In this document: positions 4,028-61,266 of the stretch, one piece after another
How positions within the stretch are numbered: the stretch's first letter is position 1
How the letters are laid out: every line of letters starts with the position of its first letter
Source: Gaertneriomyces semiglobifer
Lineage: Eukaryota; Chytridiomycota; Chytridiomycetes; Spizellomycetales; Spizellomycetaceae
Assembly: GCA_025558075.1 (NCBI GenBank)
Contig: JAHLKF010000038.1
Span: forward strand, 1-64,000
Direction of reading: 5' to 3'
DNA length: 64,000 nucleotides
Notes under the pieces: model-generated
What the model was told of the DNA's origin: nothing
Databases searched by the model: none
The model's input: the letters and a program-made list of their open reading frames with translations, nothing else
Program-made: the position numbers and the translations under genes

Positions 4028-4750
4028 ATGTCCCTTTTCAAACCGAAAGCTATCTTCCCAAAGAAGGGGAAGCATAGAGACGCCCGCATTCCTGAAGAAC
4101 TGGCGGACATTCCTTTATGTACAACACTATGCGCGCCACGAAAGTCAGGAAAATCTGCATTAGTGTGCGGTTTGATCAACGATGTATACGCGAAAATCCA
4201 CACACGAGTAATCGTCATGTCTGATACGGTTGAATACGATGCATCGGTGAAAGAACTCAGCAAACATACAAGGCACAAGAACATTTTCTTCATCGATGAC
4301 GTTTCAAACCATAGTATCAAAGCAATCATTGAAGAACAAAAGACCCTCTTCAAAGAGAATGGATCCACCTTGTTACTATTTATAGATGATGCCGCAGATG
4401 GTGCAAGGAGCAAAGACTTGGCAGCGGAGCTTGGAAGGCTCTATACGAAATCAAGACATTTCGGTGTATCCATTATTGTAGCCATTCAGAGTGTCAAAGG
4501 TCAGTTGACGAGCAAACACAAGAACTGTACGACCGAATGGATTATTTTTAGAAACGCTCAACAGGACATGAAGGTCCTTTCAGAAACATTAGCCTCCGCT
4601 TTCAAAACATCGAAAGAAGTACTAGAATACCTGACTGAATGCACAAAAGAACGCTTTTCCTTTTGTTACATTGATACAACAAAGAACAACGCGAGGGAAA
4701 TGTATAGGTATTGTGACTCGGAGGGTTTCAAAGAATATTTTGATGAATAA
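4028..4750 (+). CDS. Genome-packaging ATPase, FtsK/HerA (A32-like) family, 240 aa
   Basis: A P-loop ATPase expected to pump viral DNA into the capsid. Walker A is at residues 36-43 (APRKSGKS) and Walker B at about 115-121 (LLLFIDD), followed by DGARSKDLAAELGRLYTKSRH, which reads like the sensor segment of A32-type ATPases; the length of 240 aa is normal for PLV and Polinton ATPases. The gene is divergent from the penton gene, with about 75 bp between starts. The B copy (50600-51322) is about 90% identical in protein, but synonymous differences are clustered: some stretches are nearly identical and others are heavily substituted. It is the last gene of the shared structural module; sequence similarity between A and B stops right after it. 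Confidence 0.9.
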   Translation: MSLFKPKAIFPKKGKHRDARIPEELADIPLCTTLCAPRKSGKSALVCGLINDVYAKIHTRVIVMSDTVEYDASVKELSKHTRHKNIFFIDDVSNHSIKAIIEEQKTLFKENGSTLLLFIDDAADGARSKDLAAELGRLYTKSRHFGVSIIVAIQSVKGQLTSKHKNCTTEWIIFRNAQQDMKVLSETLASAFKTSKEVLEYLTECTKERFSFCYIDTTKNNAREMYRYCDSEGFKEYFDE

Positions 4751-4809
4751 ACGGCGCTTCTCTTGCTTTGAAAAGCAAAGATATATTCATTGTCAGCCTG
4801 GTCAGAAAG

Positions 4810-4817
4810 ATATAAAT
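4810..4817 (+). promoter_or_regulatory. TATA-like box upstream of the Gag-like ORF
   Basis: An ATATAAAT sequence about 140 bp upstream of the ATG at 4951. Comparable TATA-like boxes lie 60-95 bp upstream of several replication-module genes in A and B. Confidence 0.35.
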
Positions 4818-4868
4818 TAAGCAGTGATGCTCCTTCCTCAGAATCAATCCAGCAACAATTCCATCACA

Positions 4869-4924
4869 CTCCTGGAGCATACTTGAACATACTCCTGGAG
4901 CATACCTGAACATACTCCTGGAGC
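4869..4924 (+). repeat. 23-bp tandem repeat at the module boundary of element A
   Basis: About 2.4 copies of a 23-bp unit beginning CTCCTGGAGCATAC. The core CTCCTGGAG is itself a small palindrome. It lies exactly between the ATPase and the first A-specific gene, the same place where element B has its large iteron array. Confidence 0.75.
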
Positions 4925-4950
4925 CGCTTCATTTTTTCGGTAATTCGAAA

Positions 4951-5831
4951 ATGGGAAAGACAACAACTCCTCTAAATGACCTCGTCAGCCAAGGCACTTA
5001 TCTTACCACCGGTAAAGGAACCAAAAGGGATACTGCCGTACCCAAACGAATCGACGACTACACATATTCCGACAAGGAGCTTCTCTGGGAAATTGATGAA
5101 TACATGAAAGCGAGAGAAAAGGCTGATTTGGAATTTCAAAGCATCGCATATGCTCTCAACCGGACGCTTATGAAGCGCAACTTCGATATCAAAAAGCTTC
5201 CAGCTGAGGAGTATCTGAGAAAGCACGAATCGCCGCACTACCAAAACTATATGAATTTATACCCAGCTGTTGGATCAAAACTACAAGAACTCTGCCGTTT
5301 GTTGGCATTTCAAAACCAGCTGGACAATTACCAAGGCAATTACCGACCCCCTGTTCAACCGTATCAGAATACTATGCAATCGCTGCTGCTGGAGGCTCCT
5401 CAAGCAGTACCATCTCCGTTCGAAAGTGGACCAAGCTTCAATCAACATGGTGCAATAACTGCCGTGTCTTCTGCTTCTGCCACTCGGGAGAATACACCTA
5501 TAATTACCCCATTGACCGTTATTACTGCCACTACAAATCATGAAGTTCCAACGTCTCCGGTCTCTACTACCCCGAGTCATCAGCATCGTCAGCCGTCCCT
5601 ACTACTGCACCTCCAACAAAAAGACGTCCGGAGAACAGTGATGAAGATGTCGGAGAGACGAATGGTCAACGTCCAAGAAAGAAGAATTGTTGTAAAAATT
5701 GCCGGAAACCTCACCACTGGGTAAAAACGTGTACTGAGCCATGCAAGAAATGTAACGGAACACATCTAGGAAGAGACTGTCCAGAGTTGCCGAGGAACAG
5801 GAAAAATCAAGCATCTGCATCAAGAGACTGA
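4951..5831 (+). CDS. Gag-like protein with two CCHC-type zinc knuckles in a -1 frame
   Basis: The first frame starts at ATG 4951 and runs 257 codons to 5724. Its N-terminal half is helical and charged; the second half is rich in P, S and T. The -1 frame is open from 5544 to a stop at 5829-5831. It encodes a basic stretch and then two zinc-knuckle-like units: CKNCRKPHHWVKTC fits C-x2-C-x4-H-x4-C, and CKKCNGTHLGRDC fits C-x2-C-x3-H-x4-C. This is the layout of a retroelement nucleocapsid tail. A -1 shift between 5544 and 5724 would join the halves. I see no canonical slippery heptamer, so a one-base lesion is equally possible. It lies next to the retroviral-type integrase; element B has no counterpart. 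Confidence 0.6.
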
Positions 5832-5837
5832 GCCTTT

Positions 5838-7175
5838 TTAGTTGTCATGTATCTCGTTGTACTCATCAATCAAATCCTGTGCATCAATATCATCTTCATT
5901 GACCCATGAGTCGTGTTCACTTGACCATCCAAGCCATTTCACCTTGTACTGCGTGCGTCCACGATACCGTCTTTGTCCAACAATTGCTTCAACTTCATAG
6001 TGATCCTCTTGGTCCGTGTTGAGACGAAGTGACCGACGCCGTGGTTCAGCGGCTTCCTCATTCTGTTCTCTAATCAATTCATTCTCCTCGAGTGGATCAT
6101 CAACACTCGGTACGTCGTCCTCTTCAACTTCACCTTCTTCTTCTTCCTCACTTTCATCAAGACCGTCTTCCTTCAGGATGGGAGGGACCGCTAGCAAGGA
6201 ACTTTTGGGGTACCTACCTTTCAAGATTTTCCCATCTGCATCTTCTAAACGGTAGGATGCAAGAATGTTGGCATAAGTAGAATTTGTACGTTCTGCAACT
6301 TCATACACGTCTGTACTCCAGAATCCGCTCTTCCCGTACTTTTTCACCGAACTCTTCAAGTCTCGTTTGATGCGAACTCTTTGACCAATATGCAATGGTT
6401 TCGTTCTCGAGTTTACATGGTATCGTTTAGAGATATTCTTAGTAATCTTTGCCTGTGCTGCTGCGACCATCTCAGGATCCGCTGCTTCAAGGTCGTTGGA
6501 ACTTTGTCCCGTGGCGAAAGAACGCATCTCATTGATGTTCTTCACAACCGTCGGAAGTCTTGCTGCCCATTTTTTATCATCGCTTGCATTCATCAGTCCG
6601 TATAGCTGCTTTTTGATATGGCCGCCTCTGCGTTCCACAAAGGCATTCGCTTCAGGTCTCCCTGGTTGCGAGTAGATATGCTTGATGCCATGATTCTGTA
6701 GCATTGCTCGAAAGATACGTTGAAAGTGACTACCTTGGTCTGTTTGTACTATTCTAATCTCCTTACCTTCATGTTGACACTGCTTTACCATGTCTTCGAC
6801 TGCATTGGTCATTTCGGTCTCGCGTTCACTTCTAAGTGGTCTTGCCCACGATTTCTTGGTGAAGCCGTCTATCATATGGACAAAGGCGACATACCCTGCA
6901 TCTGGGTATGTTCGCATCGAGACCATATCAATTTGGAGGTAACCTGGTTTCTGTATATTCAAAGGCGCAATGACAGTGGGCTTGTCCGGTTTTCTATGTT
7001 TTTGCCACTCATCCTTGGAATAGAGGAAATCGTAGAGGACGGCTCTTTGAGAGCCTTTGAAGTCAGGATACTTGCGGCGGACCACCAACCAAAGGTTATC
7101 TCTACCTACCTTCATTGTCGAGTAGACATCTTCAACTTGCTGCCTCTCTCGGTCTGTTAATGCGCGGAAAGACAT
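5838..7175 (-). CDS. Retroviral-type DDE integrase with C-terminal chromodomain, 445 aa
   Basis: Catalyses insertion of element ends into DNA. The catalytic triad is visible as D83 (QIDMV), D146 (QTDQG) and E181 (FVERR), a D-x62-D-x34-E spacing typical of the family. Residues 1-60 form a helical N-terminal region. An acidic, low-complexity linker (about 325-380) precedes a chromodomain at about 390-440 (YEVEAIVGQRRYRGRTQYKV), with the aromatic and W residues expected for methyl-lysine reading. Chromodomain integrases can steer insertion toward heterochromatin. The gene is convergent with the Gag-like ORF (6 bp between stops) and is the only gene outside the structural module that is shared with element B (54551-55882). 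Confidence 0.93.
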   Translation of the reverse strand: MSFRALTDRERQQVEDVYSTMKVGRDNLWLVVRRKYPDFKGSQRAVLYDFLYSKDEWQKHRKPDKPTVIAPLNIQKPGYLQIDMVSMRTYPDAGYVAFVHMIDGFTKKSWARPLRSERETEMTNAVEDMVKQCQHEGKEIRIVQTDQGSHFQRIFRAMLQNHGIKHIYSQPGRPEANAFVERRGGHIKKQLYGLMNASDDKKWAARLPTVVKNINEMRSFATGQSSNDLEAADPEMVAAAQAKITKNISKRYHVNSRTKPLHIGQRVRIKRDLKSSVKKYGKSGFWSTDVYEVAERTNSTYANILASYRLEDADGKILKGRYPKSSLLAVPPILKEDGLDESEEEEEGEVEEDDVPSVDDPLEENELIREQNEEAAEPRRRSLRLNTDQEDHYEVEAIVGQRRYRGRTQYKVKWLGWSSEHDSWVNEDDIDAQDLIDEYNEIHDN

Positions 7176-7208
7176 TTGCTAATAAGGAATGATTATATTA
7201 CTGGAACG

Positions 7209-7320
7209 CGTCGGGACCCCTACACAGACTGTACGGGTCGTCCCATTCATTGTATGTAAGGTTTTCCACCGCGTCAAATGAAAACCCCTAAAAACCCGTA
7301 CAGACTGTGTGCGGGTCACT
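7209..7320. repeat. Imperfect inverted repeat in the integrase/methyltransferase intergenic region
   Basis: Around 7213-7234 and 7295-7316 lie two arms that are reverse complements with a few mismatches, one reading ACCCCTACACAGACTGTACG and the other ACCCGTACAGACTGTG. The block begins with GGAACGCGTCG, also found at 56668 in element B in front of CCCCTACAC. It may be a bidirectional regulatory site between the divergently transcribed integrase and methyltransferase genes. Confidence 0.5.
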
Positions 7321-7353
7321 CTCCTGAGAAACCCAACACTTCTTCCTGATACC

Positions 7354-9279
7354 ATGCCATCGACGACTTTAGATTTGGTCGACTTAGAACGTTCCATTGA
7401 TACTAGATGGTTTATTGTGAATCCCGATGTAGAAGAATCTTTCTATCACACCATGACAGCTATGTACGAGATCATTGACAAGAAGCTCTATAAATCGCAA
7501 GCGTCGAACTTGCAACAATACCTACTTCAACGTTGGAGGATATCGCTCCAACAGGGAAGGAACTTTGGTCAGGCTGGACAGGTTATCCAAGACCTTTGCG
7601 CAAATGGAATAGAGCAACAGTCACTACCGACGAATGTCACACTATTGCTCTCCATAAAGAAAATGGCAGAGAAGAAGGGTCTGTCATGTGGCGATGTTTG
7701 GAGGAAGGCGATGACATTCTTTGGTGGTCGCAGACATGTGGTCGCTTGCCAGCTCAATTTGGCATTTGAAGAGCCTGTTCCTACGCCGCTTGTAACGCAA
7801 TTAGAAAAAACGGCATCAACAAGGACTGAAAGTCACCTGCCATCTCCTGAATCTGAGCCAGAGGCTTCTCGCACATTGCGTAAGCGCGCAAGGGTCGAGT
7901 ATCAGGAAACAGAAGACCTTTCGACTGATGAGGAAGATTGCCGATCCAACACACCTATCAACGTACCACCTAGCAAAAACGTACAAGCACAATTACGAAT
8001 ACTTGATACTCCTGATTGGCTTGACACAAAAATCAAGAGCTTTGCGTATCCACGCAGTATGAATCCGTTCAATACACAACATTGGGAAAAATCTGATATT
8101 GCCTATGTTGCCATCTCGCATGGTTATATGGAGACGTGGCAGAGAATATATCAAGAGATGCGAAACGGCAATATCAAAGCCGTGATCGCATTTTCGCCAC
8201 TTGAACCGACGGAAGATTGGTGTAAACTACTCTTCTCGACTGGGATGATTGGTATACTACACCGACCTATCAATAAACGCCAGGGCTACTTTATATGTTA
8301 TCTCGATTCTGATGAAACGTACCCGCTGGCTCCCAAGTTTTGCGAGAACTTTTCGGATATCAGCTTCATACCTAATGCTACTGCGAGAATATACAAAGTT
8401 CCGCACTCGGCACCGACCATCCGATATCTATCACTCTTTTCTGGTATCGGGACGGGTGAATATGCTATTCACAAAGTATTCCCAGACGCTATATGTGTTG
8501 GGTTCTCGGAAATCGATCCGAGTGCTATCAAGGTGTATCAGACGCACTTTCCAACACATGTGAATCTTGGAGATATATCTAAAATTGATGTATCAACCAT
8601 ACCACCATATGACCTACTGATAGGAGGAAGCTGTTGTCAATCGTTCTCCGCGATGCGCCTAAACAAAAAGCATCTTAATAAGGACTTTTACGATGAACGA
8701 GGGCAATTATTTTTTGAATTCATCAGGATTCTGAAAGGGACAAAGCCCAAGCATGTACTGTTTGAAAACGTTCGTATGAATCGCGAGTCCCAGGAAACAA
8801 TCTCTAGTGCTTTGAAAATGAATCCGATTCTACTCAACGCAAAGGACTTTTCACCTCAGAAGCGACCGCGTCTTTATTGGTGTAATTGGTTTGTTCCCAA
8901 GCCTTCTCCAAAACCGACGCCTCGAATTGAAGATATCATGGAAAAAAATGAGAAGACACCAATAGCTCAATGGTCGTATATGTCAGCAGCTGTAGCTCCG
9001 CGCGGAGTGTATTGTTCGCTTTCACGTAATTTCTCCACCCGAAAAATTACATTGCTCAAGGATGGAAAATGTAAAGCTTTATTATGTTCGGATAGTTACG
9101 AACAGATGGTGTGCTGTGATGGAGTATATCGATTTCTGACAAGGATTGAAAAGTGTCGTTTGCAAGGGTTACCTGATGATTGGATGGATGTAAAGTTGAC
9201 AAAGACGGATGTCGCTAGATTGTTAGGAAATAGCTTCCAAGGCGATGTCATAAGTTATTTACTGAGCCACTTGAAGTAA
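7354..9279 (+). CDS. C5-cytosine DNA methyltransferase with extra N-terminal domains, 641 aa
   Basis: I start at ATG 7354, because the upstream extension begins only with GTG. Residues about 5-135 form a domain shared with the next gene. The middle (about 225-345) resembles the Dam-like part of that gene but has lost its motifs. From about 358 on is a C5 methyltransferase: motif I SLFSGIGTGE, motif IV GGSCCQSFS, motif VI FENVRM, motif VIII QKRPRLYW and motif X RLLGNSFQGD. The usual P-C-Q is C427-C428-Q429 here, so the catalytic Cys is kept but the proline is replaced. It probably modifies viral or host DNA at cytosine. It opens an A-specific three-gene methylation cluster, all on the plus strand. 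Confidence 0.88.
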   Translation: MPSTTLDLVDLERSIDTRWFIVNPDVEESFYHTMTAMYEIIDKKLYKSQASNLQQYLLQRWRISLQQGRNFGQAGQVIQDLCANGIEQQSLPTNVTLLLSIKKMAEKKGLSCGDVWRKAMTFFGGRRHVVACQLNLAFEEPVPTPLVTQLEKTASTRTESHLPSPESEPEASRTLRKRARVEYQETEDLSTDEEDCRSNTPINVPPSKNVQAQLRILDTPDWLDTKIKSFAYPRSMNPFNTQHWEKSDIAYVAISHGYMETWQRIYQEMRNGNIKAVIAFSPLEPTEDWCKLLFSTGMIGILHRPINKRQGYFICYLDSDETYPLAPKFCENFSDISFIPNATARIYKVPHSAPTIRYLSLFSGIGTGEYAIHKVFPDAICVGFSEIDPSAIKVYQTHFPTHVNLGDISKIDVSTIPPYDLLIGGSCCQSFSAMRLNKKHLNKDFYDERGQLFFEFIRILKGTKPKHVLFENVRMNRESQETISSALKMNPILLNAKDFSPQKRPRLYWCNWFVPKPSPKPTPRIEDIMEKNEKTPIAQWSYMSAAVAPRGVYCSLSRNFSTRKITLLKDGKCKALLCSDSYEQMVCCDGVYRFLTRIEKCRLQGLPDDWMDVKLTKTDVARLLGNSFQGDVISYLLSHLK

Positions 9280-9344
9280 AATGACACGACTTGTCTATAA
9301 AAATTTCACGTTCCGCTCTTCATGTGGAGGGCAGACCTATCAAA

Positions 9345-10556
9345 ATGGACCCATTACTGGCAGAGGAGAATCTCATAGACAAACGATGGTTTGTTATCAA
9401 TCCAGATGCGCCCGAAAGCTTCTTCAATACGATGATTGCAATGTACCGCATCATGGACAAGAAACTCTACAAGTCCCAGTTCTCCAATCTTCAGGACTAT
9501 TTGGCACCACGTTGGAACCTCTCCGAATCACAAGGGAGGAACTTTGGTCGTGCCGGCAGAGTCCTCACTTTTCTTCAAGAAGCTGGGATCGAGAGAGATG
9601 ACTTGCCACCAAACGTCTCGCTTTTACTTGCCGTAAAGAAAGTCTCGGAAAAAGAAGGACGTACATATGCAGAGACCTGGACGAAAGCCGTGAAGTATTT
9701 CAGTGGCAGATGCAATGTCGTCGCTAGTGATATGGAAAAGGCATTCAAGGAGGATCCCTTGCCACCTCCGCCAAAAGTTACCTTAACAAAAACAGCCGCC
9801 GCTCCAGCGACTCCACCTTCTTCAGCGACACCTTCACCCACGTGTCCAGTACCTTCCTCAACATACTCTCTTCGACCGCGGAGGGTACGAGTTGAAGCTC
9901 CCAGTAGCAATGATCAAGGTGAACATGTCAATCTTAGACCGCTTAAAGTACGCCGAAAGCACATCGCTCCATCCACCGAGTCCGAATACAACACTCCTGC
10001 CTGGCTCTATGCAAAGATAAAGGTTTTCGCCGGTCCAAATGGTATCGACCTGGATCCCTGCTGGAATCCAGAATCACTCGTAGAAGCAACACAATGCTAT
10101 GGAATTCAACGCGATGGGTCTTTCATTGATGCGCTTCAATTGGAAGACTGGCACAAATCAGACCTGGTATACGTGAACAGTCCCAGTCAGCATGTTCTGT
10201 TTTGGGAAAGGATTCAACTTGAACTTGATAAAGGGAACATACAAAGAGTCATTGCGCTTTCTCCTCTCCGTCCATATACTGCCTGGTGTGGACACTTACT
10301 TGCCAATGCTATGGTTGGGATGCTGAAAAAAAAGGTCCTTTTTGACAAGACTAAAGCCGCCCAGCAGCGAAATGCTGGATCAACTTGCGGCGCTATTTTT
10401 TCTCGGTTTGTCGTTTATGTTGATAGGGATGAAACTTATCCAATGGCGTCCAAGTTTGTTGAAGTATTCCAAGATGTAGCTTTCATTCCGAATGTCAACA
10501 TGCGCGATCATCGAGTCGTTGAAGTTGCATGTAAAAGTACTCAAACTGGCGTTTGA
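9345..10556 (+). CDS. Dam-like N6-adenine methyltransferase-related protein, motif degenerate, 403 aa
   Basis: I start at ATG 9345; the upstream frame begins with TTG. Residues about 5-135 are clearly paralogous to the N-terminus of the preceding C5 methyltransferase (shared pieces include KKLYKSQ, SNLQ and GRNFG). A proline/serine-rich linker follows. From about 220, the pattern NTPAWLYAKIKVFA, then IDLDPCWNPES, then W..SDLVYVNSPS resembles the phage-type Dam family (PF05869-like), where the catalytic motif is normally NPPY. Here it reads NSPS, so activity is doubtful; it could be a specificity or binding subunit for its neighbour. It starts 65 bp after the previous stop, consistent with a joint function. 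Confidence 0.6.
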   Translation: MDPLLAEENLIDKRWFVINPDAPESFFNTMIAMYRIMDKKLYKSQFSNLQDYLAPRWNLSESQGRNFGRAGRVLTFLQEAGIERDDLPPNVSLLLAVKKVSEKEGRTYAETWTKAVKYFSGRCNVVASDMEKAFKEDPLPPPPKVTLTKTAAAPATPPSSATPSPTCPVPSSTYSLRPRRVRVEAPSSNDQGEHVNLRPLKVRRKHIAPSTESEYNTPAWLYAKIKVFAGPNGIDLDPCWNPESLVEATQCYGIQRDGSFIDALQLEDWHKSDLVYVNSPSQHVLFWERIQLELDKGNIQRVIALSPLRPYTAWCGHLLANAMVGMLKKKVLFDKTKAAQQRNAGSTCGAIFSRFVVYVDRDETYPMASKFVEVFQDVAFIPNVNMRDHRVVEVACKSTQTGV

Positions 10557-10652
10557 TATGGAATACCTTTTCTTTTCAGAATAAGAAAAAGCTTGTAGCC
10601 GTTTTTTCTCCAGCGAGAAAGGAACGGCAGAAACCAACGAATAAAATGCATC

Positions 10653-11537
10653 ATGAAAAACAAAGTCAGTATGAAAAAAAAAGTAAATTCGTTTGGTACA
10701 ACGAGGTCCGACATTCACAAACCTATTGTTCCCTTTTTCAACTGGGTCGGAAGTAAACGCCGGTATTGCCAAAGACTTTACCGTTTCTTCCCCAAGAACT
10801 ATGATTTGAATAGTCACACTTATTATGAACCTTTTCTGGGAAGCGGAGCTCTATTTTTGGCTTTGCAACCTAAATCAGCTGTTGTTGGAGACATTGACAT
10901 GAATGTCACCAGCGCCTTTGAGAATATCCGCGACGACTTGTCTGAAGTAATTACGCATCTCAGTGAAATGTACAAGGGAGATGTCAAGACAAATTATGGA
11001 AACTTGTGCGGGAATTTCACCGCGTTATCTGGAATTAGGCAAACGGCGGCATTGATATTTGTGACCAAGCACAGCTTCGGTTCGAATCTCATCATGAAAC
11101 GCGACAGAACTGGATTTGGGCTTTGCTACCGAAACAAGATTATTGGATACAATGTAGAAAACATGCAACGTGCGTCCCGGTACCTCAAAGACCATCATGT
11201 CGCAATCGAGAACAAGTCGTTCACCGATATAACGAAAGCAGCCAAGAGGAACGATTTCGTATTTCTCGACCCACCGTATATCAATACCTTATCAACGAAG
11301 AAGCGATACTATAACGACAGTGATCAGATCTCAGTGGAAACCCTAGTCAAAGAAATGCTGAGGCTCCATCAAAAAGGGTGTCTGGTAATGTTAGTCAATT
11401 CGGATAGCCCGATACTTCGAGAAGCCTTGAGTTCAACATTCACTTGTGAAAGTTTCGATGCTCACGAAAGCATAACTGGAGTTCATGGAAAAAAGTATTC
11501 GAACCAACGACGTGAATGCGTATACTTCAATTGGTAG
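10653..11537 (+). CDS. D12-class N6-adenine DNA methyltransferase (Dam family), 294 aa
   Basis: A complete Dam/MboII-like methyltransferase. The AdoMet motif is EPFLGSG (residues 59-65) and the catalytic motif is DPPY (206-209), in the alpha order of the D12 class. WVGSKRR near residues 31-37 is the usual N-terminal signature, and the length of about 290 fits the family. It transfers methyl to adenine N6, possibly in GATC-type sites, though the specificity cannot be read from sequence. An AAGCTT motif lies about 65 bp upstream. It closes the methylation cluster of element A; element B has none of these genes. The first 20 residues are basic and may not be part of the fold. Confidence 0.92.
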   Translation: MKNKVSMKKKVNSFGTTRSDIHKPIVPFFNWVGSKRRYCQRLYRFFPKNYDLNSHTYYEPFLGSGALFLALQPKSAVVGDIDMNVTSAFENIRDDLSEVITHLSEMYKGDVKTNYGNLCGNFTALSGIRQTAALIFVTKHSFGSNLIMKRDRTGFGLCYRNKIIGYNVENMQRASRYLKDHHVAIENKSFTDITKAAKRNDFVFLDPPYINTLSTKKRYYNDSDQISVETLVKEMLRLHQKGCLVMLVNSDSPILREALSSTFTCESFDAHESITGVHGKKYSNQRRECVYFNW

Positions 11538-11620
11538 AATGACAGATAGAAAAATACAAGCTTTACCTTTCCTTTCTTTCTATGACAGAACATGAATCGA
11601 TCAATGTGCGTTTCAATTTG

Positions 11621-11630
11621 TATATAAAAA
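11621..11630 (+). promoter_or_regulatory. TATA-like box upstream of the tyrosine recombinase gene
   Basis: TATATAAAAA about 90 bp upstream of the ATG at 11714, in an A/T-rich leader. Confidence 0.4.
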
Positions 11631-16296: not shown

Positions 16297-16299
16297 TAC

Positions 16300-54536: not shown

Positions 54537-54550
54537 GCATTAGTTATGTG

Positions 54551-55882
54551 TTATGTGATATTTGTTATTTCATTGTATTCATCAATCAAATTTTGTGCAT
54601 TTACATCTTCTTCATTGACCCATGAATCATCGTCTTGCCCATATCCAACCCAGCGGACCTTATATTGAGTCCGTCCACGATACCGTCTGCGTCCCACAAT
54701 CGCCTCGACTTCATAGTGATCTTCTTGGTCTCTGTTGAGACGAAGTGATCGCCGTGGTTCAGCAGCCTCATTCTGTTCTCTTATTAATTCATTATCCTCG
54801 AGTGGATCATCGACACTCGGTACGTCCTCTTCAACTTCTTCTTCTTCTTCTTCCTCACTTTCATCGAGAGCATCTTCCTTCAGGATAGGAGGGATCGCTA
54901 GTAGAGAACTCTTAGGGTACCTTTCTTTCAATACGTTTCCATTACCATCTTCTAAACGGTAAGATGCCAAAATGTTGGCATAAGTAGAATTGACCCTTTC
55001 TACTACGATGAAAATATCTGTGGACCAATAACCCCCACGCCCGTACTTCTTCACCGAACTCTTCAAGTCCCGTTTAATACGCACCCTTTGACCAATATGC
55101 AACGGTTTTGTTCTTGAGTTCACATGGTATCGCTTAGCTATATTTTTTGTTATCTTTTCTTGTGCCTCAGCGACCATTTCAGGATCTGCCGCTTCAAGGT
55201 CATTAGGACTGTGTCCAGTCGCAAAAGAACGCATGTTATTCACATTGTTTATTACGGTCGGAAGTCGGGATACCCATTTCCTGTCATCGTTGGCATTCAT
55301 GAGTGCGTATAATTGTTTTTTGATATCTCCATTTCTTCGTTCCACAAAGGCATTCGCTTCAGGTCTTCCCGGTTGCGAATATATATGCTTGATGCCGTGA
55401 CTCTGTAGCATTGCTCGAAAGATACTCTGAAAGTGACTACCTTGGTCTGTTTGTACAATTCTAATCTCCTTACCTTCACGTTGACACTGTTTTACCATAT
55501 CTTCAACTGCATTGGTCATGTCCACTTCCCTTTCGTTCCTCAAGGGTCTTGAAAACGATTTTTTGGTGAAGCCGTCTATCATATAGACGAAAGCGACATA
55601 GCCAGTGTCCGTATAGGTTCGCATCGACACCATATCTATCTGAAGGTAACCTGGTTTCTGTATATTCAAAGGCGCAATGACAGTGGCTGTATTTGGTTTT
55701 CTATGAAGTTGCCATTCGTCCTTCGAATACAGGAAGTCGTAGAGAAGAGCCCTTTGGCTACCTTTGAAGTCAGGATACTTGCGTTTTACTGCGAGCCAAA
55801 GGTTGTCTCTACCTACCTTCATCGTAGAATAGACATTCTCAACTTGACTCCGTTCGCGATCTGTGAGTGCGCGGAAACTCAT
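54551..55882 (-). CDS. Retroviral-type DDE integrase with chromodomain, 443 aa (element B)
   Basis: I start at 55882 to match the A start (MSFRALTDRE); an in-frame extension to 55975 begins with a non-ATG codon. The triad QIDMV, QTDQG and FVERR is intact, with the same spacing as in A. The chromodomain at the end reads YEVEAIVGRRRYRGRTQYKV. Roughly 85% identical to the A integrase, much less than the structural module, so it has followed a separate path. The clean TSD and TIR of this element suggest that this enzyme, or one like it, inserted it. Confidence 0.93.
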   Translation of the reverse strand: MSFRALTDRERSQVENVYSTMKVGRDNLWLAVKRKYPDFKGSQRALLYDFLYSKDEWQLHRKPNTATVIAPLNIQKPGYLQIDMVSMRTYTDTGYVAFVYMIDGFTKKSFSRPLRNEREVDMTNAVEDMVKQCQREGKEIRIVQTDQGSHFQSIFRAMLQSHGIKHIYSQPGRPEANAFVERRNGDIKKQLYALMNANDDRKWVSRLPTVINNVNNMRSFATGHSPNDLEAADPEMVAEAQEKITKNIAKRYHVNSRTKPLHIGQRVRIKRDLKSSVKKYGRGGYWSTDIFIVVERVNSTYANILASYRLEDGNGNVLKERYPKSSLLAIPPILKEDALDESEEEEEEEVEEDVPSVDDPLEDNELIREQNEAAEPRRSLRLNRDQEDHYEVEAIVGRRRYRGRTQYKVRWVGYGQDDDSWVNEEDVNAQNLIDEYNEITNIT

Positions 55883-55990
55883 CTTTATTGATAAGTGAGT
55901 GATTATATTATGGATCGACTTCTTGCTTTGTGCGATGAAAGAACTAACTATCGATAGAGGAAAAGGAACGATCAAACATGCACCTAACGC

Positions 55991-56000
55991 AATATATAAA
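55991..56000 (+). promoter_or_regulatory. TATA-like box upstream of the SprT gene
   Basis: AATATATAAA about 60 bp upstream of the ATG at 56052. Confidence 0.4.
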
Positions 56001-56051
56001 GGTCCTGTACGAGGTCACTTCTCCAATTATGTCTATATTCGAAAGTTCAAG

Positions 56052-56603
56052 ATGAAGAACGCCAAGACACCCGTAAAAAGGCAGACAAAACGCAAAACCG
56101 CCAAAAAACGCGCTACAAAAACCGTAAAGGTAACCAAGAAAACACGGGTAGTCATCAAGCCAGTCACCAAAATGGAAAAGGCTGCCACGAAGCTTGCTCA
56201 CACTCTTTTTACTAAACACAAAATTGTTGGGTGGACTTTTGGTTTCGACCGAGCTGTAAGGCGCTATGGCGTAACGAAATTCGGATCAAAAGTTATATCA
56301 TTGTCTAGAGAATGGGTCAATTCACCAACTGGAACATTGGACAATATTCGTAACACTATTCTTCATGAAATTGCTCATGTTCTTACACCAAAACACCACC
56401 ATGATGCTGTGTGGAAAGCCAAGGCAATCGAGATTGGCTGTACCGGAGAGAGGTGTGGATCCTATGGTAGCTTCGTCGAGAAAAAGTGGAAAATAATTTG
56501 TAAATGTGGAAGAGCCAATTTAGAACGTCACAGGAAACCTGCATGTCTCGAGAACAAAGTGTGTGATCATTGCAAAACTCCTCTCAAAATAGTTAAGAAA
56601 TGA
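56052..56603 (+). CDS. SprT-like zinc metalloprotease, 183 aa
   Basis: I choose the ATG at 56052; the longer ORF begins with a non-ATG codon in the promoter. Residues 1-40 are basic (KRQTKRKTAKKRATKTVK). The active site HEIAH is followed by a further histidine cluster (PKHHHDAVWKAKA), the SprT/Spartan arrangement. A C-terminal four-cysteine zinc ribbon (CKCGRANL ... CDHC) completes the domain. Cellular Spartan digests proteins crosslinked to DNA; here it may remove such adducts or a terminal protein from viral DNA. It is specific to element B. Confidence 0.85.
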   Translation: MKNAKTPVKRQTKRKTAKKRATKTVKVTKKTRVVIKPVTKMEKAATKLAHTLFTKHKIVGWTFGFDRAVRRYGVTKFGSKVISLSREWVNSPTGTLDNIRNTILHEIAHVLTPKHHHDAVWKAKAIEIGCTGERCGSYGSFVEKKWKIICKCGRANLERHRKPACLENKVCDHCKTPLKIVKK

Positions 56604-56639: not shown

Positions 56640-56880
56640 CATCAATAAAAGCTGAAGAACATATTGCTGGAACGCGTCGACCCCTACACTCTCTGTGCGG
56701 ATCCATCCATTTGTGGGATAGAACGTTTCCAAAAAGTGGAGAAACATATCAGTTTCCGCTCGGATATCTATCAAAGTAATCCCGTCAGGCTTTTTGATCT
56801 CCTAATTTGAAGATTGGAAACTGTTGATACGTATATACTACCTACACTTTTCCAAATCTTCAAATTAGGAGATCAAGAAC
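56640..56880. repeat. Internal degenerate copy of the TIR stem-loop (copy 3)
   Basis: The stem-loop CTCCTAATTTGAAGATTGG...CCAAATCTTCAAATTAGGAG lies at 56799-56871. The preceding 80 bp (ATATCAGTTTCCGCTCGGAT...) match the inner TIR flank at 61376-61400, so a TIR-like block lies inside the element, upstream of the primase gene. It begins with GGAACGCGTCGACCCCTACAC, also seen at 7202 in A. The rest of 56881-57051 shows no gene. Confidence 0.7.
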
Positions 56881-57051
56881 TACTGCGTCAACGATCATGT
56901 AATATATGTATACATGATGTAGTCATCAATAAAGCTTTCAAACAGTACATAAACCCTACACACTGCGTTCGGTTATCAATAGGATTTTTAGTTGCCATTA
57001 AGTAAAACGAAAAATCACAACCCCCCAGTTCTAATTTTATCGATTACTAGA

Positions 57052-60000
57052 ATGGCAATTACTTCTATCAAGAACAAGTACCGTCCCATTGAGAAGCACG
57101 GTATCACTTTCTTCACCAATCGCAGCAAGGGCAATGGGATCCTCAAGAATCTCCTTGGGAAATGCCCCACGGACAAGGTGGTCGTTGCATCTTCAATCAA
57201 GTACGAACGTAAAACCGGTGATCAACAAGGTACCAAAGCGTACAGCGCTTATACCGCCGTGACGCCCAAGCAGTTGTCGGCTCTGTTGAAGCAGGATGTC
57301 AACTTATTCGAGATCATGCATGAAGACCGTCCTCAAAAGGTTGCTTTTGATATCGACTTTAAACCCCAACCCGACCAAACGCCCATCAAGACGGATGTAC
57401 TCCAAGAAATCACTACCTTGCTTCACAAGTACTTTCCGGGTTGCCGTTTGAATATATCAGGATCTATCACCGACTCAAAGCATTCCTATCATATAATCTT
57501 GGAAAATTATTTTGCGAAACGCAATGAGGATCTACTCGCGGTCAAACAGTTTTGCTGCGTCCCAGAACACAGGGCTCTGGGCTTTGATCCTGCCGTGTAC
57601 AATAACAACGGACAGTTTAAAGCGATCAATCAAAGCAAAGGAGATGGACGGATTCAGACTTATATATCGGGTTCGAAAAAAGTTTTGGACCACACCGTCA
57701 TGCACAAGATCCCAAAAGATGCCATCGACGTTTCGACCTTGGATCTACCTGCTCCTGCCAAGAAGCGCAAGTACACCAGGAAAGACCCGGCGAACGCGTC
57801 CAATTCAAAACCGAAGAAGAAAGTGGACGATTACATTATCGAGCTCCCGCGTATGGAATTAGAGTGTCCAGACGGATTCTCTTACCATGAGGCAACACCG
57901 GACGCACAACTGGCTGCCATGCCCAATGCTCCTCGGTACGACAAGTTTCAGTTGTACCATACGTACAATCGCCGAGTGCTCGCCTGGTGTAAGCATGTCG
58001 GTCTCACCTTTGAAGAGTTCTGGGAGTGGTGCAAGCAAAAGGACGATAGCCCTGATCGAAAATCCAGGTACAGCCGCATATGGAAGGATGCAGATGTCAA
58101 CAAGTACCCACCCAAGGATAACTTTATGAAGGCATCGTTGGCAGTGGTGTACAAGAACATTCAAAAGCATCATCCGGTCAAGCAGATGCTCCAATCATTG
58201 AACAAGACATTTGACCTCGACATCAATCGTCGCTTCCTCAGTGTGGACGATCTGATTTCCAACCAAGATAAACGATGCATTCTCCTTCAACTCCCGACCG
58301 GTAGTGGAAAGTCACAGGCTGTTCTCGAGTTGCTGAAGTGGTACAGCGAAAAGAATCCGAATCAACGCATTCTTTGGCTGACGTGTCGTATCACATTGAC
58401 CAACGACCAGAGGACACGCCTCAGAGACACCACTGGACTTCCTTGGATATTTTACTTGGATGCACATGGATCCGCCAAGAAGGAATTGATGAAGAAATCG
58501 AATCCTCAGTACTTTGTGTGCTCCGTCCAGTCTGCATACATGATAAACAAGCCTTATGATCTTGTCATCATGGATGAATCTGAAACACTATTGAGGAGTT
58601 TTGAAGGTGAAGCAAAATGTCACAAAGGTGGTTCAAACGACCGACGTCTCCTTCACTGGAAAATCTTACAGACGACCATCACAAACGCCAAACAGACCAT
58701 CTGGATGGACGCTTTGTTGACCAATGCCAGTATCCATCTTGCTCAAGATCTCTGCGGCGGGGAGGTTTTCAAAATAGGTTCTCAACCACACCATGTCCCT
58801 CAACGTAACGCGATACGGGTCAAGTCAGAGCCAGATTTCTTCAACAAAATCCAAGTAGCTCTGCAGAATGGTGAAAAGCTACTTATTTGTACGGGGAACA
58901 AGGGATCCACCACTCCTGACAGCGAATGCTTCCTGTCTGTTGAAGGGATCTACTCGACAATCATGCGTATGTTCCCTGATTGGGAGTATGGGAAACAGGT
59001 CTTGAGATACCATGCGGATCGCAAAGATGAAAAAGAAGGATTGCGAGAAGTCTTGTCTGCTTGGGGACATCCTGATATACGTGTCGTGATTGGGAATTCT
59101 TCACTCGCTGTGGGTGTCAACTATGACCCAACACCAGAACAACAGAAATACTACAGGCTTTTTGACAAGGTATTTGTCGTACTTCAGCCGCCGGCTCTAT
59201 CGCCTCGGGACGCTACTCAAGTTGTGGGACGTGTGAGGAAAACCACAACCAACGAGATCTACTATCTTGCCGCTCGCGGTGCCACAGGAGCCGACTTCTA
59301 TCACAATGATGGGCTTGCTGATTCACTCTCTCAGCTGTCCCCTGCATATGCCCGTCTGAGGAAGAACATGAGGACAGAAACGTTGGTGTCTTCATGCAAA
59401 GGATACATGACCATTGTCCGTGAGATGTTCCTCATGAACAACATTGTCATGGCAAAGGATGACATTGAAGCTATCGTTGAAGAGGACGAAGAAGAAAAGG
59501 CAAACGAGTTCTGCAATACCGACTTGAGTATGTACCGCTGGAAAAACATTCGAGACATCACCGAAGATGAAAAGAAAAAGATTCTACAACTCATGTTCTA
59601 CCAGGATGCAACTATCACACAAATACTCGAACTATACAAGTACAATTTCCGGGAACGGTTTATATCCATTGAGGAGGGCTTGTACGAGCTGTACTGGGAC
59701 AGGTTCAAACCATGTGCAGATCAACTGCATATGATGGGCATCACCAGACGCAAAGACAAAGATCTTCCTGAAGAACATCAATACAAGATGAAACTTGCAG
59801 CTCGACACCTGTGCAAGTTGTTCCAAGAGAATAATGTGGATATTATGGATCCGGACAAGTTCAAGATTACCAAGGACTTTCAATGGAGTGTTCCTTTGCA
59901 TGAGATCAAACGCATCTTTGACTTTTTATCGCGTCCGCCGACAACTCTTAGGATGGATCTGTTCGCCAAAGTCTTGAATACAGCGTTCGGGACCGAGTTG

Positions 60001-60105
60001 GTGTACAAAGACTATCCCAACGAAAAGAATCGAAAGTACTACGAATGGAAAACCAAATACTTTCCTTGTGATCCTTGCCATATTCGATCTTTGCAAGAAC
60101 TTTAG
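57052..60105 (+). CDS. AEP primase fused to UL9-type SF2 helicase, 1017 aa
   Basis: I start at ATG 57052; the 20 codons upstream begin with TTG. Residues about 60-230 form an archaeo-eukaryotic primase with KVAFDIDF (D100, D102), SKHSYHIIL and FKAINQSKGDGR. From about 400 on is a superfamily 2 helicase like the herpesvirus origin-binding protein: Walker A LPTGSGKSQ (415-421), DEAD-box variant MDES (about 507), a VVIGNSSLAVGVNYD segment and motif VI QVVGRVRK (about 722). The C-terminus is helical. UL9 relatives open an origin by binding iterons, which fits the array at 51323-51800. This protein and the SF3 helicase together would replace A's AEP-SF3 fusion. Confidence 0.9.
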   Translation: MAITSIKNKYRPIEKHGITFFTNRSKGNGILKNLLGKCPTDKVVVASSIKYERKTGDQQGTKAYSAYTAVTPKQLSALLKQDVNLFEIMHEDRPQKVAFDIDFKPQPDQTPIKTDVLQEITTLLHKYFPGCRLNISGSITDSKHSYHIILENYFAKRNEDLLAVKQFCCVPEHRALGFDPAVYNNNGQFKAINQSKGDGRIQTYISGSKKVLDHTVMHKIPKDAIDVSTLDLPAPAKKRKYTRKDPANASNSKPKKKVDDYIIELPRMELECPDGFSYHEATPDAQLAAMPNAPRYDKFQLYHTYNRRVLAWCKHVGLTFEEFWEWCKQKDDSPDRKSRYSRIWKDADVNKYPPKDNFMKASLAVVYKNIQKHHPVKQMLQSLNKTFDLDINRRFLSVDDLISNQDKRCILLQLPTGSGKSQAVLELLKWYSEKNPNQRILWLTCRITLTNDQRTRLRDTTGLPWIFYLDAHGSAKKELMKKSNPQYFVCSVQSAYMINKPYDLVIMDESETLLRSFEGEAKCHKGGSNDRRLLHWKILQTTITNAKQTIWMDALLTNASIHLAQDLCGGEVFKIGSQPHHVPQRNAIRVKSEPDFFNKIQVALQNGEKLLICTGNKGSTTPDSECFLSVEGIYSTIMRMFPDWEYGKQVLRYHADRKDEKEGLREVLSAWGHPDIRVVIGNSSLAVGVNYDPTPEQQKYYRLFDKVFVVLQPPALSPRDATQVVGRVRKTTTNEIYYLAARGATGADFYHNDGLADSLSQLSPAYARLRKNMRTETLVSSCKGYMTIVREMFLMNNIVMAKDDIEAIVEEDEEEKANEFCNTDLSMYRWKNIRDITEDEKKKILQLMFYQDATITQILELYKYNFRERFISIEEGLYELYWDRFKPCADQLHMMGITRRKDKDLPEEHQYKMKLAARHLCKLFQENNVDIMDPDKFKITKDFQWSVPLHEIKRIFDFLSRPPTTLRMDLFAKVLNTAFGTELVYKDYPNEKNRKYYEWKTKYFPCDPCHIRSLQEL

Positions 60106-60174
60106 CACTTTTATCCATTGTTCGATCGATAGGAAAAGGTTATTCGATTAAAGGTAAACCTCATATTTTTTTCA

Positions 60175-60192
60175 AAGCTTGTATATAAAAGC
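60175..60192 (+). promoter_or_regulatory. Candidate promoter: AAGCTT then TATATAAAAG
   Basis: AAGCTTGTATATAAAAGC about 60-75 bp upstream of ATG 60250. It combines the two motifs that recur upstream of viral genes in the window. Confidence 0.5.
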
Positions 60193-60249
60193 AAATATAC
60201 TTTCACCTTCAGATTGTTGTCCACCTCCATCCGTATCTCATTCTCCAAA

Positions 60250-61266
60250 ATGGACCGCGAAAGTATCAAAGGTATTCTCGAAGCCAATTTGAACGCGACT
60301 AGCGTCGAGATCAAGAAGCGCGCCAAGTACCTTTTAGCTATCCTCAATGAGGGTCTGCTTGACGATCTTTACAATGTGGAGGTGCAGGACTTGGCTAAAC
60401 GGTTGTTTGATCGGACGCAAGATCCTCGCAAGAGTAGAACTTCAAGTATGGAAAATGTTGTCAAGTCTCATCTAGGTTATGTTCGTACATTACTTTCCAC
60501 TGATATTCCTGGATTCAAAGACGACGAGGTACGTCAACAGTATGTTATGAAGATCAGGTCATACCAGGATAGTTTCGCACCAAAGCATCGCAAGGAGGGA
60601 AAGTTATCGAACAAGGAGAAGGAGGCGTTGGACAATGCGGCAGTGGATATTGAGACATTTGAGAAACTGTTTGAAACAGTCAAGACACTTACTGAAGACA
60701 TGCTCCAGATGCTGCAGAACAATGTTTCCTTGGACGAAGAACAGTTGTTGAACCTGCAATTGGTTATCATATTGAATCTGCTGTTGAACGAACCAAATGT
60801 TCGTTTGAGTCCATATGCAAAGTTGAAATTTGATGGGAACTGTCTGGATGACAACATTATTGTTTTTGAAGGACATGAGATGGGTAAGATTGTACTGATC
60901 TTCAACACTGTCAAAACGGTGGGTGTCCCAATCATCCTTTCAGTGTCGAATGAACCGTTGAAAAAGATGATGCACGCGTACTTTGATCGCTACCGGAAAG
61001 ACCACAAGGACCATGGATACTTGTTCCAGAAGAAGACCAAGCGTCCTTTTTCAGCTGATGAACTTCAAAAGGGAATCAATCAGTTGCTTCGTAAGCACTT
61101 TGCAGATGGATTGACTTCAAGATTGATCCGTGTTATCGAAACCATCACTTCATATGAGGCGGACAAGAAGTTCAGTTATCGCGAGTTGGATATGATGTCC
61201 TTTGCACGCAATCACTCTATCAAAGAGGGACACTTGTATAATCGTACCGAGCGTAGCAATGTCTAG
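60250..61266 (+). CDS. Possible tyrosine recombinase, 338 aa
   Basis: I start at ATG 60250. Residues 1-150 are helical, like a core-binding domain. The second half has features in the order of a tyrosine recombinase: a hydrophobic helix LQLVIILNLLLN followed by NVRLSPY (R185), a strand with VFEGHEMGK then FNTVKTVG (K222), TSRLIRVIETITS (R291 or R294) and FARNHSIKEGHLYNR (H322, Y330). The same positions can be laid over the A protein at 11714-12922, which lies in an equivalent place beside the primase gene. Sequence similarity between the two is low, so this is a structural guess. Confidence 0.5.
   Translation: MDRESIKGILEANLNATSVEIKKRAKYLLAILNEGLLDDLYNVEVQDLAKRLFDRTQDPRKSRTSSMENVVKSHLGYVRTLLSTDIPGFKDDEVRQQYVMKIRSYQDSFAPKHRKEGKLSNKEKEALDNAAVDIETFEKLFETVKTLTEDMLQMLQNNVSLDEEQLLNLQLVIILNLLLNEPNVRLSPYAKLKFDGNCLDDNIIVFEGHEMGKIVLIFNTVKTVGVPIILSVSNEPLKKMMHAYFDRYRKDHKDHGYLFQKKTKRPFSADELQKGINQLLRKHFADGLTSRLIRVIETITSYEADKKFSYRELDMMSFARNHSIKEGHLYNRTERSNV

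Follow-up and report, generated by a model that had tools for sequence, protein, structure and literature searches.

Integrated polinton-like viruses of the chytrid Gaertneriomyces semiglobifer share a virion gene set, which probably recombines, across two unrelated replicons with matching termini

How do integrated viruses that share their virion genes come to carry unrelated replication genes and different ends? The question is raised by three elements (A, D and B) in a window of 64,000 nucleotides that begins at base 1 of contig C38 of the soil chytrid fungus Gaertneriomyces semiglobifer, a host whose genome contains several related integrated viruses; other elements were located genome-wide in the same assembly. 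All three are polinton-like (MELD-type) viruses in integrated form. We found a packaging ATPase of the HerA/FtsK/A32 group and an rve integrase with a chromodomain together with TSDs, and element B (38781-62205), at 23.4 kb with TIRs of 870 bp that are 99.4% identical, fits the TIR-bounded range of 14-40 kb given for polinton-like/MELD elements in the available passages of PMC12220804. Among 30 window ORFs scanned there was no Pfam match at E<=1 to protein-primed PolB, the mark of Polintons/Mavericks in the strict sense. The same 30 ORFs, a set that covers part of the short ORFs, gave no match at E<=1 to a cysteine protease or a virophage capsid family, and the MCP-penton-ATPase-cysteine protease set of virophages (Maveriviricetes) is therefore not seen here.

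Element A carries an A-type replicon:
1-16355 (+), element A, left side cut by the contig start, ending at a palindromic tip
107-415 (+), 102-aa virion-module gene
1289-2538 (-), capsid (MCP/hexon) gene, split over two frames
2626-3162 (-), basic protein gene
3237-3980 (-), penton-like gene region, frame interrupted, longest ORF 3237-3872
4028-4750 (+), packaging ATPase
4951-5724 (+), 257-aa gene without a match in B
5838-7175 (-), rve integrase with chromodomain
7309-9279 (+), C5 cytosine methyltransferase
10653-11537 (+), D12 adenine methyltransferase
11714-12922 (+), 402-aa gene of the A-type replicon
13054-15507 (+), AEP-SF3 primase-helicase, the A-type replicase
15429-16355 (+), A-type TIR, beginning within the end of the AEP-SF3 gene
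15874-15903, TTGGCANCCC tandem repeat within the TIR
16300-16355 (no strand), perfect palindromic tip, 56 bp

It is followed by half-element D:
16356-25102 (+), half-element D: start of the 102-aa gene, 551-aa gene, fibre, 157-aa gene, A-type TIR
16506-18161 (+), 551-aa virion-module gene
18234-23535 (+), fibre region, two overlapping ORFs
23646-24119 (-), 157-aa gene, divergent allele
24176-25102 (+), A-type TIR, 97.5% identical to that of A, holding the AEP-SF3 gene tail

Element B carries a B-type replicon:
38781-62205 (+), element B with both TIRs, flanked by the 5-bp TSD CTCGT
38781-39651 (-), left B-type TIR, origin-like dyads at 39078-39118 and 39491-39532
39700-40173 (+), 157-aa gene
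40284-45621 (-), fibre genes, 1461 and 337 aa
45693-47348 (-), 551-aa virion-module gene
47447-47755 (+), 102-aa gene
47860-49110 (-), capsid gene (416 aa); a record of a Powellomyces MELD virus calls a relative 'hexon'
49197-49730 (-), basic protein
49808-50551 (-), penton-like protein (247 aa), a putative label without a family match
50600-51322 (+), packaging ATPase
52080-54536 (+), D5-type SF3 helicase
54551-55975 (-), rve integrase with chromodomain
55899-56603 (+), SprT-like protein
56814-56855 (no strand), origin-like dyad preceding the UL9-like gene
56992-60105 (+), AEP plus UL9-like SF2 helicase, the B-type replicase
60214-61266 (+), 350-aa gene of the B-type replicon
61336-62205 (+), right B-type TIR, dyads at 61454-61495 and 61868-61908 (the second with one mismatch)
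62149-62205, palindromic tip at the right end, 57 bp

A reading made from the sequence alone had described one virion module joined to two unrelated replication modules with different termini, and the comparison of A, D and B bears this out. A 1289-4751 is 91.5% identical in nucleotides to B 47860-51323, and D matches B at 90.3% (D 16356-19928) and 91.6% (D 21222-24172). The virion genes are shared as that reading held, but 'nearly identical' is too strong: the A/B mismatch per gene is 5.3-15.2% (102-aa gene 15.2%, capsid 5.3%, basic protein 7.3%, penton 7.7%, ATPase 14.9%) and heterogeneous (p=1.5e-14). The full set that it ascribed to all three can be followed for the fibre and 551-aa genes in D and B only, A being cut by the contig start. 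On one side, A/B identity stops 1 base past the ATPase stop codon (4750/51322); both replicase types always depart from the shared module at this stop, and the sequence directly past it varies even within each type. The other border, which had been placed between the fibre and 157-aa genes, had to be moved: D/B homology extends as far as the TIR's inner edge (D 24172 = B 39647), and the 157-aa gene of D is a divergent allele, since B's copy has 95.3% identity to that of C24 (A-type replicase) and 91.9% to that of half-element C49D (A-type TIR). The join between this gene and the TIR is identical in 6/6 copies where it is readable. Of the module's labels, the capsid's putative double jelly-roll fold goes with a relative called 'hexon' by its source; the capsid itself has no Pfam or PHROG match, and a PDB sequence search with its profile returned 0 matches at E<=10. 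The ATPase gave P-loop matches below the Pfam cut-off and a PHROG match to terminase large subunit (2.8e-7), and the C31a ATPase, 28% identical, matches Pox_A32 at 2.8e-8.

D begins at 16356 within the 102-aa gene, directly abutting the tip of A. It is a second copy and not the missing half of A, because the first 157 bp of D and positions 1-158 of A are only 95.6% identical, a difference of about 4% over the overlap. The simpler reading is that A inserted into the 102-aa gene of D; the left TSD expected from such an insertion (TCGAC) would fall off the contig.

Beyond the ATPase stop the integrase is the only relation between A and B (84%/82% amino acid identity), as had been proposed: in tblastn searches run both ways, with seven proteins of A queried against the region of B and five of B against that of A, the four other rows had E 0.18-0.88, none of them indicating homology. 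The earlier domain assignments also held. A combines AEP-SF3 (Prim-Pol 1e-17, DUF5906 3e-9) with C5 and D12 methyltransferases, and B has a D5-type SF3 helicase (D5_N 4e-10), a SprT-like protein (1e-6) and an AEP-UL9 protein, whose UL9-like profile matches four solved 'Replication origin-binding protein' sequences of herpes type (best E 5.3e-24). Genome-wide, each replicase occurs in four elements. The AEP-SF3 proteins of C24, C49 and C45 are 94-97% identical in amino acids to that of A, and the UL9-like proteins of C11, C31a and C31b are 94-95% identical to that of B (88% for one C31b piece).

The termini follow the replicase wherever both are seen. B-type TIRs are present at both ends of all four B-type elements (B, C11, C31a, C31b), and A-type TIRs in three of the four elements with the A-type replicase (A, C24, C49), a search for one in C45 having found none; half-elements D and C49D carry A-type TIRs and are assigned to the A-type by these alone. 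The left A-type TIR begins inside the coding end of AEP-SF3. The B-type dyads, AT-centred with TTGGAAA/TTTCCAA arms, number 19 sites, all within the four B-type elements, with two per TIR and one before the UL9-like gene (this last missing in C31a); the exact form was found 4 times in the window against 0.00 expected, always in B. The TTGGNNNCCC tandem (a 10-bp repeat) is in 5/5 full A-type TIR copies compared, and the 282,493 bases searched contain no other occurrence. The argument for the A-type repeat rests on the tandem arrangement, because single TTGGCAACCC matches barely exceed chance (9 found, 4.01 expected; 3/100 shuffles gave as many). Based on their placement, the short repeats are candidate replication origins. 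In herpesviruses, oriS has initiator sites in inverted orientation on either side of an AT-rich spacer and is bound by a UL9-type helicase; the B-type pairing of a UL9-like SF2 helicase with AT-centred dyads resembles this system, as judged from sequence. We also considered a conserved hairpin in the dyads and rejected it, co-variation of the arms over 13 distinct units being not significant when arms were permuted (252/2000 reach the observed score). Palindromes of 56/57 bp with identical arms occur at 10 places genome-wide, all within these elements, and the arms of undamaged tips are 13 bp, common to both types. B and C11 have 5-bp TSDs; C31a has none, and its flanks are inverted copies.

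The comparison of structural and replication trees had been set beforehand as the test that could refute the sequence-only reading, and the topologies disagree. In trees of 5 to 7 rows each, tested when the pairwise distance table was already known, the integrase separated the replicon types with support of 100/100, and an A-type clade was rejected (AU p<0.01) for 5/7 virion and end genes: 102 (p 0.003), 551 (1.8e-5), capsid (6e-70), basic protein (0.007) and penton (6e-4). A-type monophyly was not rejected for the ATPase (p 0.276) and 157-aa genes (0.313), and these two genes at the borders may in part go with the replicon. Identities agree: the capsids of A and B are 94.7% identical and those of A and C24 76.0% despite a common replicase, and the 102-aa genes of C24 and C11 are 98.0% identical across replicase types. 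The two types also share tracts of >99% identity: 2520 bp with 13 mismatches (C24 and B), 1269 bp with 8 and 1031 bp with 4 (C24 and C11), 1183 bp with 10 and 421 bp with 0 (D and B) and 360 bp with 0 (A and B). Tracts of >=250 bp occur in 6/15 A-type by B-type pairs, a count that covers between-type pairs. Synonymous divergence differs between the parts. The dS between A and B is 0.87 for the ATPase and 0.96 for the integrase, and ATPase dS ranges over 0.37-0.94 within types and 0.42-1.58 between them. Within a type, AEP-SF3, 402, UL9 and 350 belong to the best conserved of the genes compared (dS 0.00-0.18 for the pairs that were computed), far below the integrase within the A-type (0.60-1.06). 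Nor does the replicon stay together as one fixed block: the integrase diverges in this way, D5 is 77% identical between B and C11 over 860 columns and 27% for C31b over part of it, no A-type TIR was found for C45, and the sequence past the ATPase stop varies within both types.

A different pattern is seen on contig C31, a large inverted arrangement in which the B-type elements C31a and C31b mirror each other and have their flanks in common. Over some 4.3 and 4.4 kb their ends agree at 99%, around unrelated cores: a recent wholesale core swap. The C31a core probably came from outside, because its SF1-helicase core protein is single-copy in the assembly and its ATPase is <=35% identical to any other match there. 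That protein, of 1346 aa, has a long N-terminal part, an SF1/PIF1-like helicase and a C-terminal HNH, and adjoins a UL9-like helicase without its AEP part; its polymerase part was not recognised by Pfam and had no PDB sequence match, and to call it PolB is a guess.

How old is the exchange that separates A from B? The sequence-only reading took it for a single, recent and wholesale swap of both the replication module and the termini, a view to which the sharpness of the two borders (ATPase stop and TIR edge), the tracts of 99-100% identity and the comparable recent swap on C31 lend some support. We nevertheless regard it as very unlikely, since the ATPase dS of 0.87 lies right at the border, the patchy divergence across the A/B module already contradicts it, and the replicase types are common to several elements with the same 157/TIR join. 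Instead, the replicon replacement behind A and B appears to be old, because of that dS and the recurrence of the replicase types, and the virion genes seem to have recombined repeatedly since; the recent event in the A/B-type population would be patchwise virion-gene exchange. Descent of A and B from one virus without exchange, with a merely fast-evolving replicon, has next to no probability: broadly speaking, AEP and SF3 domains occur in both replicons, and B-type D5 does change fast, but the two lack any sequence relation, AEP-SF3, 402, UL9 and 350 are among the best conserved genes within a type, and the discordant trees already contradict it.

Could gene conversion between the copies that reside in the chromosomes maintain the similarity of virion genes, with no recombination between viruses? 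All copies lie in one genome, long tracts of >99% could arise in this way, and C31a/C31b are mirror copies with shared flanks; we consider this improbable, given the probably external C31a core and a capsid from another Gaertneriomyces isolate, JEL0708, with 97% identity to that of B, against 86% and 83% for the capsids of the residents C31b and C24. Similar repeats might be suspected of having been assembled into chimeras where A lies at a contig start and D abuts it, where C24 ends within an element and in the C31 inversion. They are a highly improbable source of the pattern, however, as each replicase type is on at least 3 contigs in copies differing by several percent, 5-bp TSDs flank B and C11, and TIR type matches replicase wherever both are seen.

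The explanation we favour, and hold to be probable, is a population of exchangeable units in which the joining of replicons is old, a virion pool recombines, and replicase and termini move as a unit. The copying system would consist of the replicase plus both termini, the short TIR repeats presumably being the start sites for the matching replicase (dyads for the UL9-like, the TTGGCANCCC tandem for AEP-SF3). The integrase would tend to accompany this unit; identical 13-bp arms on undamaged tips would let it work on both types. The 551, 102, capsid, basic and penton genes, with the ATPase and 157 at the edges, would form a common pool passed between types gene by gene through homologous recombination, presumably between co-infecting virus genomes, the two replicons having joined this virion set long ago. 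The route may have been a crossover just beyond the ATPase gene, after which the new right end would be copied onto the left end, renewing both TIRs. A more specific version, which we put forward tentatively and think rather doubtful, is that a self-contained replicon (replicase and origin-bearing termini) fits a resident virion set by one crossover, that end-copying through hairpin-prone palindromic tips renews the TIRs, and that the C31a/C31b cores represent the reverse route.

Module exchange is already known in virophages (PMC8547959) and polinton-like viruses (PMC12220804), as far as the available passages go. The endogenous virophages EMALE01 and EMALE02, from Cafeteria burkhardae (Hackl et al. 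2021, PMC8547959), share 6-7 kb and differ elsewhere, described as morphogenesis-module exchange, and integrase version co-occurs with replicase type in EMALEs. The chytrid elements are likewise small integrated DNA viruses in one host, with partial sharing and an integrase tied to the replicase; in contrast, their exchange runs both ways (one virion set with two replicons, one pair of ends with two cores), their virion genes recombine repeatedly at >99%, and their termini agree with the replicase. In cryptophyte polinton-like viruses, MCP and pDNAP trees are incongruent, replicases include AEP-S3H and Prim-S2H, and an rve integrase goes with a 6-bp TSD (passages of PMC12220804). The incongruent trees, several replicase classes and rve integrase with TSD recur here, but the chytrid elements are partly near-identical in virion genes with different replicase classes, and have 5-bp TSDs and palindromic tips, the word stem 'palindrom' being absent from that text. 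The C31a protein recalls the Tlr-helicase, described in part of PMC12721341 as a truncated pPolB-SF1H-GIY-YIG, in its long N-terminal part, SF1/PIF1-like helicase and C-terminal nuclease; it differs in the HNH endonuclease, the unrecognised polymerase part and the neighbouring UL9-like gene without AEP. A Spizellomyces punctatus polinton-like virus (PMC7805220) and 'Powellomyces chytrid fungus MELD virus 5' (a record name only) also have chytrid hosts, and the passages available for the former describe no replicon exchange. The protist survey PMC10120064 excluded Fungi, according to its available part. In an open-access literature set with few preprints, the papers listed on chytrid polinton-like/MELD elements name no replicon exchange in chytrids, and none on Gaertneriomyces polintons was found; palindromic or hairpin polinton tips appear in no title or abstract opening among the matches listed.

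Relatives comprised 9 proteins for the 551-aa gene, 12 for the capsid and 11 for UL9, and scans of IMG/VR with the ATPase, UL9, AEP-SF3 and the C31a 1346-aa protein gave none. The organisms named were Gaertneriomyces, Spizellomyces, Powellomyces and Phlyctochytrium, the rest lacking an organism name; Powellomyces and Phlyctochytrium are chytrids. The B capsid is 61-62% identical to a Spizellomyces capsid and 56-57% to the Powellomyces 'hexon'. Incongruent trees of distant relatives are the usual evidence for module exchange among small DNA viruses. In this genome the parts that were exchanged and those that were not are neighbours, in copies close enough for relative dating of each part and for placing borders within a few bases. 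Two questions can thereby be tested: does the replicase have to travel with its termini, and by what means does a linear virus restore both ends after a single crossover? The pattern also suggests that classifications of such viruses by capsid only and by replicase only would conflict. A second virion family, with an ATPase 58-59% identical, accounts for 6/31 ATPase matches. Among its six members, the stretches read were C6:663 kb, C45 and a 3.7-kb locus of C24; that of C6 bears a UL9-like gene and that of C45 an AEP-SF3 gene, suggesting that this family also uses both replicase types.

Three integrated polinton-like (MELD-type) elements lie in the window, which opens at base 1 of contig C38 (assembly of 20.86 Mb, 66 contigs) and also contains DNA of the host, the chytrid fungus Gaertneriomyces semiglobifer, bearing retroelement remains.

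1-16355, element A, right part only
16356-25102, half-element D
38781-62205, element B

B is bounded by inverted repeats of 870 bp (99.4% identical) and a 5-bp target duplication, CTCGT. Its insertion site (38776-38780 / 62206-62210) adjoins sequence repeated elsewhere in the host, and its left flank (37171-38763) shares 82% identity with C45:67999-69587. D adjoins a repeat with an integrase (H2C2/rve) ORF, 25863-28500, that is 91.7% identical to C45:34389-37024, itself next to another A-type element (AEP-SF3 replicase).

The sequence-only reading saw shared virion genes beside unrelated replicons in A and B and took this for a recent wholesale exchange. Across 3,470 aligned columns the capsid, basic, penton and ATPase genes common to A and B are 91.5% identical in nucleotides; their 102-aa genes are 84.8% identical, and D and B have the 551-aa, fibre and 157-aa genes in common. 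As had been claimed, tblastn past the ATPase stop, with seven A proteins as queries on the B region and five B proteins on that of A, shows only the integrase to be related. Domain searches likewise confirmed AEP-SF3 and two methyltransferases in A, and a D5-type helicase, an SprT-like protein and a UL9-like helicase in B. For AEP in the UL9-like protein of B the Pfam signal is weak (PPL4, E 0.058, in one of 12 relatives); aligning the 12 relatives revealed conserved DxD, SxH and D positions N-terminal to the helicase, which we take to be AEP motifs. For the helicase part, structures of herpesvirus origin-binding proteins are matched (5e-24). The middle of the fibre gene, likely a hypervariable receptor-binding part judging from its divergence, is mostly 50-80% identical between D (19256-21587) and B (44601-42300), with one window at 90%, and its flanking blocks are 83-100% identical. 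Between the 102-aa and capsid genes A has a 220-aa ORF region (419-1081) without counterpart in B; C49 (11378-12000) matches A 681-53, so part of this region is common to C49 and A.

Seven of the 31 ATPase matches in the assembly, B included, are at least 90% identical to that of B, and all seven were examined. Four have the A-type replicase (A, C24, C45 and C49) and three the B-type UL9-like gene (B, C11 and C31b, one of two elements on C31); the other C31 element, C31a, is a fourth B-type element with an unrelated ATPase (28%). All four B-type elements are bounded by B-type TIRs. A, C24, C49 and the half-elements D and C49D (the latter on C49) have A-type TIRs, and a search for them at C45 found none. 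The D12 methyltransferase has no match in C24, and neither methyltransferase has one in C49. D5 is 77% identical between B and C11, and the SF3 gene of C31b differs from theirs and is apparently split. Since these other genes vary among elements, what stays constant in the B-type replicon is UL9, 350 and the TIR; the idea of a fixed replicon block is weakened by the within-type divergence of D5 and integrase and by the missing C45 TIR, which also lend slightly more weight to gene conversion among resident copies as a rival explanation.

Consistent with exchange, trees from per-gene nucleotide alignments (five to seven rows each) were discordant between structural genes and integrase. Integrase sequences group by replicon type (support 100/100), and five of seven virion or end genes reject an A-type clade: 102 (p 0.003), 551 (1.8e-5), capsid (6e-70), basic (0.007) and penton (6e-4). 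This clade was not rejected for ATPase (p 0.276) or 157 (0.313). The virion trees also conflict with one another, joining A to B for capsid, to C24 and C11 for 102, and to C11 for penton, and mismatch rates are heterogeneous among virion genes in all eight pairs tested (p from 4.5e-6 to 6.6e-62). For the ATPase, synonymous divergence is 0.37-0.94 inside types and 0.42-1.58 across them; within type it is 0.00-0.18 for AEP-SF3, 402, UL9 and 350, values that exclude several pairs with frame-breaking gaps, among them A-C24 AEP-SF3 (97.2% identical in nucleotides) and B-C11 UL9 (96.2%). The integrase is at 0.60-1.06 within A-type, so that it, too, is older than its accompanying replicase. Tracts of at least 250 bp and >99% identity occur in 6 of 15 A-type by B-type pairs (only cross-type pairs were counted), the longest spanning 2,520 bp with 13 mismatches. 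Together, tree conflict, divergence and tracts argue that the replicases are few and young, and that the virion alleles joined to them come from a pool that is older and recombines.

At the first border of the shared module, homology stops at the ATPase stop, and the sequence beyond comes in several versions even within type (A resembles C49, C24 resembles C45, B resembles C11, and C31b stands apart). The second border, previously placed between the fibre end and 157, did not hold, as homology reaches the inner TIR edge. In all six copies with a readable 157-side join (A-type D and C49D; B-type B, C11, C31a and C31b) the virion side extends to the same AACTTGGACG(CACC) sequence. The A-type TIR starts 79 bases inside the AEP-SF3 gene, so D and C49D bear a copy of the gene's tail at the end that lies farthest from the gene. 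This arrangement indicates that the left end is a copy of the right. On the proposed route, one crossover beyond the ATPase and then right-to-left end copying would replace the replicase and both termini.

Ten palindromic tips, a set without the left tip of A, the right tip of C24 and the tips of C45, have the same 13-bp arms and differing centres. Those of A-type are perfect and 56 bp long; those of B-type are 57 bp with an odd centre base, two having one mismatch. Genome-wide, the pattern turns up 10 times, always within these elements (reversed control: 0). The left tips of C11 and C31b and the right tip of C49 are damaged; the last (C49:48094-48130) breaks near the palindrome centre, where telomere-like CCCTAA repeats follow and, after them, an inverted fragment from the end of the same element. 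Each B-type TIR has two copies of a ~165-bp repeat, with one more upstream of the UL9-like gene. The core of this repeat is TTGGAAA, an AT-rich spacer and TTTCCAA. In a scan permitting one mismatch per half, such sites total 19 (B 5, C11 5, C31a 4, C31b 5), 17 with a spacer containing ATATA or TATAT; rows of the scan other than these 19 are scattered, A-type elements included, and lack that centre. The exact dyad occurs four times in the window, always in B (expected 0.00). Tandem TTGGCANCCC is present in all five full A-type TIR copies and nowhere else in 282,493 bases scanned; single TTGGCANCCC sites are little above chance (9 found, 4.01 expected). We read the dyads and the tandem TTGGCANCCC as putative replicase-specific start sites, which, if so, would account for the joint movement of termini and replicase. 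When the dyad arms were tested for co-variation, a conserved hairpin gained no support.

The two elements on C31 present what is, on sequence comparison, a recent swap.

C31:95887-120214, element C31a
C31:123054-146922, element C31b

Their ends are inverted copies, ~99% identical (95232-99582 with 147579-143227, and 115720-120168 with 127502-123054), and between about 102.7 and 115.7 kb C31a is unrelated to C31b. This core holds another, Pox_A32-like ATPase, followed by a protein without family hit that is taken for a candidate capsid by position only, a 1346-aa protein combining SF1 helicase and HNH domains, and a further rve integrase. In the UL9-like gene of C31a the match begins at about residue 249, so the AEP part has been lost. 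Within the assembly the 1346-aa protein has no second match and no match to the ATPase exceeds 35%; both results point to a donor of the core from outside. The flanks of C31a are one sequence in inverted orientation, which also flanks C31b, and no TSD was found at C31a, so the locus itself was also rearranged; an assembly error may account for the arrangement.

Published accounts describe module replacement (morphogenesis or replication) in virophages and PLVs, with EMALE02 (PMC8547959), MCP/pDNAP incongruence (PMC12220804) and a shared gene pool (PMC4642659), so this kind of event is already known; PLVs are likewise noted in the chytrid Spizellomyces (PMC7805220), and a record exists of a hexon from a Powellomyces 'MELD virus'. 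As far as the literature searched shows, three things are new: the two-way exchange at near-identity within a single chytrid genome, terminal repeats that agree with the type of replicase, and palindromic tips that have their arms in common.

A second virion family, its ATPase 57-58% identical to that of B, has a UL9-like gene at C6:655799-664429 and an AEP-SF3 gene at C45:49843-58948. A distant AEP-SF3 element (45% identity) gave matches of equal score on six contigs, which suggests a recently duplicated region:

C19:370874, distant AEP-SF3 element match
C30:160124, distant AEP-SF3 element match
C34:144712, distant AEP-SF3 element match
C39:79214, distant AEP-SF3 element match
C47:41225, distant AEP-SF3 element match
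C59:11873, distant AEP-SF3 element match
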